DNA of 64,000 nt. It comes from Actinomycetes bacterium. Lineage in GTDB: Bacteria > Actinomycetota > Acidimicrobiia > Acidimicrobiales > Ilumatobacteraceae. The position numbers were made by a program, and so were the translations under genes. The notes below the pieces were generated by a model. It was given only the letters and a program-made list of their open reading frames with translations, did no database searches and was not told the DNA's origin. Shown in pieces: positions 19,312-20,488 of this stretch. The stretch is taken from contig JANYDH010000213.1 in assembly GCA_025359865.1 (NCBI GenBank), positions 1 to 64,000 on the forward strand. The letters are read 5' to 3'. Numbering within the stretch: the stretch's first letter is position 1; each line of letters opens with the position of its first letter.

Positions 19312-20310
19312 TCAGTGATTCGAGGTGAATCCGCCGATACCCAGCTGCTGATCCAAATCAGCCCGGAACGTGGACGCCTCGGCGGGGAACCTCGCTCCGG
19401 TGCCGTCAGCAACTCTGGTCATCATCTCGAAGTTCGCCGCCACCGCCGCAGCGTCGACCATGAACGCCTCGCCAGCTACTGCTGCCAACCGCGCTCGTGC
19501 ACGATCGAGCTGATCATCGTCCCAGCCGGCGATCGCCTCGGCGAACGCCACCAGTTCTGCTCCGTGTGGAAGCCCGCCGTCACCGCTCCCGTCGACGATT
19601 GCACCAAGATCTGCGGGGCCTCCGGCCTTGGTGCTGCTCCAACTGAGCATGCCGGCGTGAGCAGTCGTTCAAAAAAAGCACTGCCGCAACAGCGAGAGCC
19701 GACCGGCAACCAGCTCCATCTGCGGGCGGCTGAGGGTGCCCCGGTTCCATGCCGGGTCGGACATCTGCGCATCGCTCATGTACTGCGTTGCGGCAAGACG
19801 CCACAGGTTGGCGTCCTCATCCGGTAGCGCGCTGAGCGCCTGTACGACTGAGGCACGGGCATCGGCAGGCGCAGCGACCGGCACCCAGTTCAACGCCGCA
19901 TCGGCCAATTCGACCGCGACGTGACCTGTGGGATCGCCTCGTGCTGGCTGGGGCAGTTCCGGCAGCGCTAGACCGGCAGCGCGGGCGAACGCGACCGGCG
20001 AGATGACCGCAACCACGATCCCGACCACCTCGACCCAGTCGAGCGGCTCCAGCTCGGTCTCGACGACCTGCCGATACCACGCTTGGGTGATCGTGCCGGC
20101 GTGACGGCCCAACCGGTGGGCGACGTCGAGCGCCGGGTCGTCGTACGGCCGCGCCCACGGCGGTGCAGGGTCTCGCTGCAGATAGGCCGCCTGCGCAGCG
20201 CGAGCGATGGCGCACCGCCGCATCGCCTCGAACCGGGCACCAGGATGCGCCACATGCGCCAGCGACGCCCCGTGAGCATCGGCCAGATCCGCACGCACCA
20301 CGAGCCTCAC
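19312..20310 (-). CDS. AhpD-like (carboxymuconolactone decarboxylase-type) protein with in-frame TGA, probable selenoprotein
   Basis: The minus-strand frame from GTG 20310 runs to TGA at 19671-19669, then continues open in the same frame to a second TGA at 19314-19312; read through, it is 332 aa. The first TGA (codon 214) lies in CFF-TGA-TTAH. If it encodes selenocysteine, the residues form C-x-x-U-x-x-x-H (Cys211, Sec214, His218), the exact spacing of the AhpD redox motif CxxCxxxH. The preceding LSRPQMELVAGRLSLLRQCFF is the family's usual lead-in helix, and the following residues continue a helical AhpD fold. An N-terminal half (DWVEVVGIVVAV) looks like a degenerate AhpD repeat. A small hairpin begins about 19 bases after the TGA (see 19635-19649). 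AhpD-like selenoproteins are a known class. The alternative is a nonsense-mutated gene giving a 213-aa fragment. The start could also be GTG 20301 or 20298. Confidence 0.7.
19635..19649 (-). promoter_or_regulatory. Candidate bacterial SECIS hairpin after the in-frame TGA
   Basis: On the minus strand TGCTC and GAGCA form a 5-bp stem around the loop AGTTG. The loop starts 25 bases after the TGA, with G as its second base. These fit the published bacterial SECIS consensus (a short upper stem, a G among the first two loop bases, roughly 16-37 bases from UGA to loop). A longer outer pairing CTGCTC/GAGCAG is also possible. Such hairpins arise by chance, so it supports but does not prove recoding. 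Confidence 0.55.
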
Positions 20311-20347
20311 GACTCCTCACCCTAGCCCAGCCGGCACCCGTCCATCT

Positions 20348-20399
20348 CAGCGTTTGGTAGCTCGAGCCCCGCCCAGGGGGCTCCACCTACCAAACGCTG
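20348..20399 (-). repeat. 52-bp hairpin element, copy 1 of a tandem pair
   Basis: Perfect 13-bp arms CAGCGTTTGGTAG (20348-20360) and CTACCAAACGCTG (20387-20399) enclose a second stem GAGCCCC/GGGGCTC on the same axis. It lies after the MMPL gene and before the AhpD-like gene. It may act as a terminator or processing site, or belong to a palindromic repeat family. Confidence 0.85.
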
Positions 20400-20423
20400 C
20401 AGGGACCGAGGAGGCCGCCAACT

Positions 20424-20475
20424 CAGCGTTTGGTAGCTCGAGCCCCGCCCAGGGGGCCCCACCTACCAAACGCTG
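20424..20475 (-). repeat. 52-bp hairpin element, copy 2 of a tandem pair
   Basis: Identical to copy 1 except for one base in the loop region (T to C), with arms at 20424-20436 and 20463-20475 and 24 bp between the copies. The near identity of a non-coding pair suggests recent duplication or selection on the structure. Confidence 0.85.
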
Positions 20476-20488
20476 CTGGGACTGGGGG

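Follow-up and report, generated by a model that had tools for sequence, protein, structure and literature searches.

The closest described system is the NCBIfam family NF041238 (AhpD_rel_CFYUT, "alkylhydroperoxidase-related (seleno)protein"), which a 2026 review places among the CxxU selenoproteins and identifies with "hypothetical protein 1" from a 2005 Sargasso Sea survey (PMC13188914). For that protein, the survey of the Sargasso Sea selenoproteome reported four selenocysteine (Sec) sequences, SECIS elements and a CXXU motif (Zhang et al. 2005; PMC1088965). The rules for bSECIS elements specify a loop of 3–9 nt, an upper stem of 4–16 bp, a G in the first two loop positions, a distance of 16–37 nt from the UGA and a minimum free energy (MFE) of −7.5 kcal/mol or lower (PMC13188914). 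In AhpD of M. tuberculosis, the catalytic set consists of Glu118, Cys130, Cys133 and His137 (PMC3141380).

The gene analysed here occupies positions 19312–20310 on the minus strand of the window, i.e. the whole 64,000-nucleotide stretch of DNA under study. It has a GTG start and a TGA stop at 19314–19312, and read-through of an internal TGA yields a complete frame of 332 residues, from 20310 to 19315. The sole in-frame TGA before the terminal stop, at 19671–19669, falls on the second position of a CxxC motif (minus strand: ...CAG TGC TTT TTT TGA ACG ACT GCT CAC...), which gives C211-F-F-U214-T-T-A-H218 (CxxUxxxH). The 118 codons 3' of it (residues 215–332) contain no further stop and no frame change. 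These readings bear out the initial annotation, which had placed the TGA at the second cysteine of the motif and had noted the 118 open codons and the flanks free of frame changes. Default gene calling would cut the product at 213 aa, directly before the active-site residue.

The translated frame matched NF041238 with 285 bits against a cut-off of 175, spanning residues 5–329 and profile positions 1–356 of 357. The family motif C-F-[YF]-U-T is present as CFFUT at residues 211–215, with the in-frame TGA. Since the Sec identity of NF041238 was already known, the gene is an additional member of a known selenoprotein family: it is a sound new example and no discovery, as the family's entry among catalogued selenoproteins dates from 2005. 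Knowledge of Sec insertion itself is unchanged by it. Separately, the class-wide search often met short AhpD-like frames (~190–200 aa) with one in-frame TGA in the smaller genomes (e.g. G005:C3 and G073:C1; family f29, ~1-Mb genomes); these apparently represent a second CxxU AhpD-like selenoprotein group.

The spacing E-x11-C-x2-U-x3-H, comprising E199, C211, U214 and H218, equals that of the M. tuberculosis AhpD set, so that Sec or Cys in place of the TGA restores the catalytic spacing, as had been proposed (PMC3141380). Glu199 (codon 19714–19716, minus strand), 12 residues before C211, is by spacing the counterpart of Glu118, and His218 (19657–19659, minus strand) that of His137 (PMC3141380). 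Cys211, the first (partner) residue of CxxU, is encoded by TGC at 19678–19680 on the same strand. In alignment A1, which holds 21 homologues, E199, C211, U/C214 and H218 are invariant. Pfam CMD (PF02627) gave one match, to residues 187–221, with 15.7 bits, which is below the gathering score of 23; other members of A1 match the same family, with a best E-value of 2.4e-08. Weak matches to Pfam Phostensin_N and DUF7064 were below the cut-off and were disregarded. The AlphaFold model is all-helical, with a pLDDT of 92.7, and its relevant high-probability Foldseek matches in the PDB (6k40, 2prr, 3c1l and 3lvy) are AhpD/CMD proteins, with probabilities of 0.97–0.99 and E-values above 0.05, for the C-terminal domain only.

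The N-terminal 150 residues matched no recognised domain. The initial annotation had assigned the protein to a "two-repeat" family, which found no support: Pfam delimits a single CMD stretch, and profile comparison of the N-terminal with the C-terminal half by hhalign gave a probability of 0.2% and an E-value of 0.24, no better than the reversed control and with no signal of a decayed AhpD repeat in the N-terminal 150 residues.

With the AhpD motif and fold observed in the protein, we infer that its role is most likely AhpD-type thiol/selenol redox chemistry, exerted through the invariant E-C-U-H set. The label "selenoperoxidase", which the initial annotation had used, is a putative one, read from the motif. 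Among the other explanations, the one that retains most weight, while still being unlikely, is that the protein is a selenoprotein other than an AhpD-type redox enzyme, i.e. a regulator or a non-peroxidase CMD member, for example a dehalogenase-like one. The domainless N-terminal region would fit such a role, as would the debrominase Bmp8 (6ohi), which is one of the catalytic domain's fold matches, and the literature search for the family, which found no functional study and no assayed function. The E-C-x-x-U-x3-H set, kept invariant with AhpD spacing, argues against it and for the redox enzyme. With a consistent TGA and hairpin and no assayed function found, NF041238 is a tidy target for biochemistry.

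For comparison of the TGA column, 45 homologous loci were assembled, consisting of 15 relatives from a species-genome scan and 30 loci from a class-wide NF041238 profile search (own copy included); the set contains a few near-duplicates. The codon aligned with the Sec214 codon (19669–19671, minus strand) is TGA in 44 of the 45, own copy counted and always in the same frame, and TGC in the remaining one (L034). Identities to the query range from 76% down to ~30%, so the TGA and the sequence 3' of it have been kept over long evolution. Beyond the TGA, N293, F294, M297, R299 and G305 are likewise invariant in A1. This persistence weighs heavily against a genuine stop or nonsense mutation, which would leave either a pseudogene or a 213-residue product. 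That reading draws on TGA being a stop in table 11; the TGA nevertheless stands at one column down to ~30% identity and is followed by 118 codons conserved across the family.

The TGA is followed by a SECIS-like hairpin at 19633–19652 on the minus strand (GGCATGCTC-AGTTG-GAGCAGC region), with a 4-bp core GCTC/GAGC. Its 5-nt loop, AGTTG (19644–19640), starts 24 nt after the TGA and has G at position 2, and the local fold, with a stem of 4–5 bp plus 2 after a bulge, has a computed energy of −8.8 kcal/mol, all of which agrees with the bSECIS rules of PMC13188914. The core GCTC-NGNNN-GAGC, including the second-position loop G, occurs 3' of the TGA in 45/45 loci. The codons it overlaps are strongly restricted: CTC encodes the Leu inside the hairpin in 45/45 loci, against a share of 492/1152 among the Leu codons in the rest of the same genes; AGC encodes the downstream Ser in 44/45 (153/649 in the rest of these genes) and AGT the loop Ser in all 19 cases (26/649). 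As these counts derive from related, non-independent sequences, they should not be converted into a probability. They show a codon choice fixed at the RNA level, with a nucleotide constraint exceeding the protein's need. Paired cells in the hairpin amounted to 89%, against 32–56% for slid partners, and the covariation score was matched by 17 of 500 shuffles, a modest signal because the four core pairs hardly vary. When the own genome was searched by pattern for hairpins of this type behind a TGA, only the 19312–20310 gene was returned.

The own genome (4.99 Mb in 219 contigs, 96.6% complete) contains a tRNA-Sec (64.7 bits, anticodon TCA), selB (281.6 bits) and selA (399.8 bits) adjacent on contig C83, and selD (309.8 bits) on contig C58, whose product has Cys at the active site as read from the sequence. 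All four genes by which a bacterial selenoprotein gene is judged, selA, selB, selC (tRNA-Sec) and selD, are thus found in one genome. A second selenoprotein gene, for a formate dehydrogenase alpha subunit on contig C169 (L066 1501–3372, minus strand; G000:C169:20408-22279), carries its in-frame TGA precisely where Sec classically stands (NNIDSCNRT-U-HAPSVVGL), and a GGTCT loop-like sequence is part of the hairpin 3' of it. That a single genome has at least two Sec genes confirms the lineage's use of selenocysteine. Two copies of the tRNA-Sec were found, one at an end of contig C89 and the other at an end of C200 (L002 45–140 and L003 2–97), with flanks identical on one side and different on the other. 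Given the contig-end positions and the shared flank, the copies are probably a single gene (or a site variant) that the assembly has split; the doubling could stem from a break in the assembly or from integration of an element at the tRNA.

In a survey of 296 genomes of the class, NF041238 scored over the cut-off in 45, and selA was present in 44 of these, compared with 157 of the 251 genomes lacking the family (Fisher p = 1.6e-7). The one family-bearing genome in which selA was not found, G234, is ~90% complete. Sec machinery in the gene's own genome further opposes the stop or nonsense mutation, which we regard as very improbable. The checks proposed at the outset, i.e. a search for selA, selB, selC and selD and inspection of homologues at the TGA column, returned all four genes and, at that column, only TGA in 44 loci and a Cys codon in one. 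The selenocysteine reading, together with its corollary of a Sec-using actinobacterium, is accordingly strongly supported by the TGA column, the hairpin in 45/45 loci and the host Sec genes, including those for tRNA-Sec, SelA, SelB, SelD and the Sec-type formate dehydrogenase.

Decoding of the TGA as another amino acid, such as Trp or Cys, by a suppressor tRNA or a code change would accommodate the TGC of L034, but the same gene ends in TGA as its ordinary stop, and tRNA-Sec, SelA, SelB, SelD and the SECIS-like hairpin make another decoder unnecessary; we give it hardly any credence. Because the codon adjoins a run of seven T, an assembly slip was also considered, but a sequencing or assembly error has practically no chance of being the cause, as an indel would shift a frame that is intact on both sides, and relatives lacking the run—most TGA-bearing ones have TTC TTT, TTC TAT or TTC TAC before the codon—carry TGA at the same place in independent genomes. 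We regard it as almost certain that the TGA at 19671–19669 stands for selenocysteine in a redox protein's active site, with Sec insertion at residue 214 predicted from the open frame, the TGA conservation, the hairpin and the host machinery.

As to the neighbourhood, a conserved operon partner was sought and rejected: an MMPL transporter and a PAC2 neighbour recur in the close relatives L021–L026 only and not at ≤50% identity, in a view partly limited by short contigs. Since these neighbours are confined to close relatives, they were not taken as functionally linked to the gene. Two copies of a 52-nt near-palindrome (CAGCGTTTGGTAG...CTACCAAACGCTG) stand in tandem between the MMPL gene and the selenoprotein gene (20342–20487, copies at 20348–20399 and 20424–20475). 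Its family is found on many contigs, with 81 matches counting both strands, i.e. very roughly 40 places, and it resembles an interspersed REP-type palindrome.

We hold with high confidence the overall explanation that the gene encodes an NF041238 AhpD-related selenoprotein, with Sec directed by SelB and the hairpin to UGA214 and an AhpD-like redox working thereafter. The tRNA-Sec (anticodon UCA) would be charged with selenocysteine by SelA and SelD, and SelB would bind the hairpin beginning ~19 nt after the UGA, thereby delivering Sec at UGA214 and allowing the ribosome to continue as far as residue 332. Once the all-helical protein has folded, a reversible selenenylsulfide would form between C211 and U214 (selenenylsulfide/selenol cycle), with E199 and H218 acting as a proton relay as in AhpD. 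The protein might then be either a direct reducer of (hydro)peroxides or related electrophiles, or a redox adaptor. A more specific and rather doubtful extension is a two-domain selenoenzyme, whose ~150-residue N-terminal domain might guide the AhpD-like Sec centre towards a partner or substrate foreign to known AhpD; such an enzyme would be concentrated in Acidimicrobiia-like actinomycetes with aerobic use of Sec.

Compared with M. tuberculosis AhpD and PA0269 of the AhpD-like peroxidase family, the protein shares the Glu-x11-Cys-x2-Cys/Sec-x3-His arrangement and an all-helical catalytic domain. It differs in that Sec replaces the second Cys, Phe occupies the His132 position and an N-terminal domain of ~150 residues is added, and the sequence similarity is weak (PDB matches with E-values of 0.004–0.3). 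The peroxidase-related, Sec-containing AhpD-like proteins of TIGR01926, which also possess CxxU, resemble its C-terminal domain (24 bits, E-value 2.7e-05); this score is, however, below the cut-off of 81.8 bits, and TIGR01926 proteins measure ~180 aa. With NF041238, it has in common the full-length match, CxxU, the TGA at the same column and the SECIS-like hairpin, and it departs from that family in nothing of substance, reading CFFUT where the family name has CFYUT.
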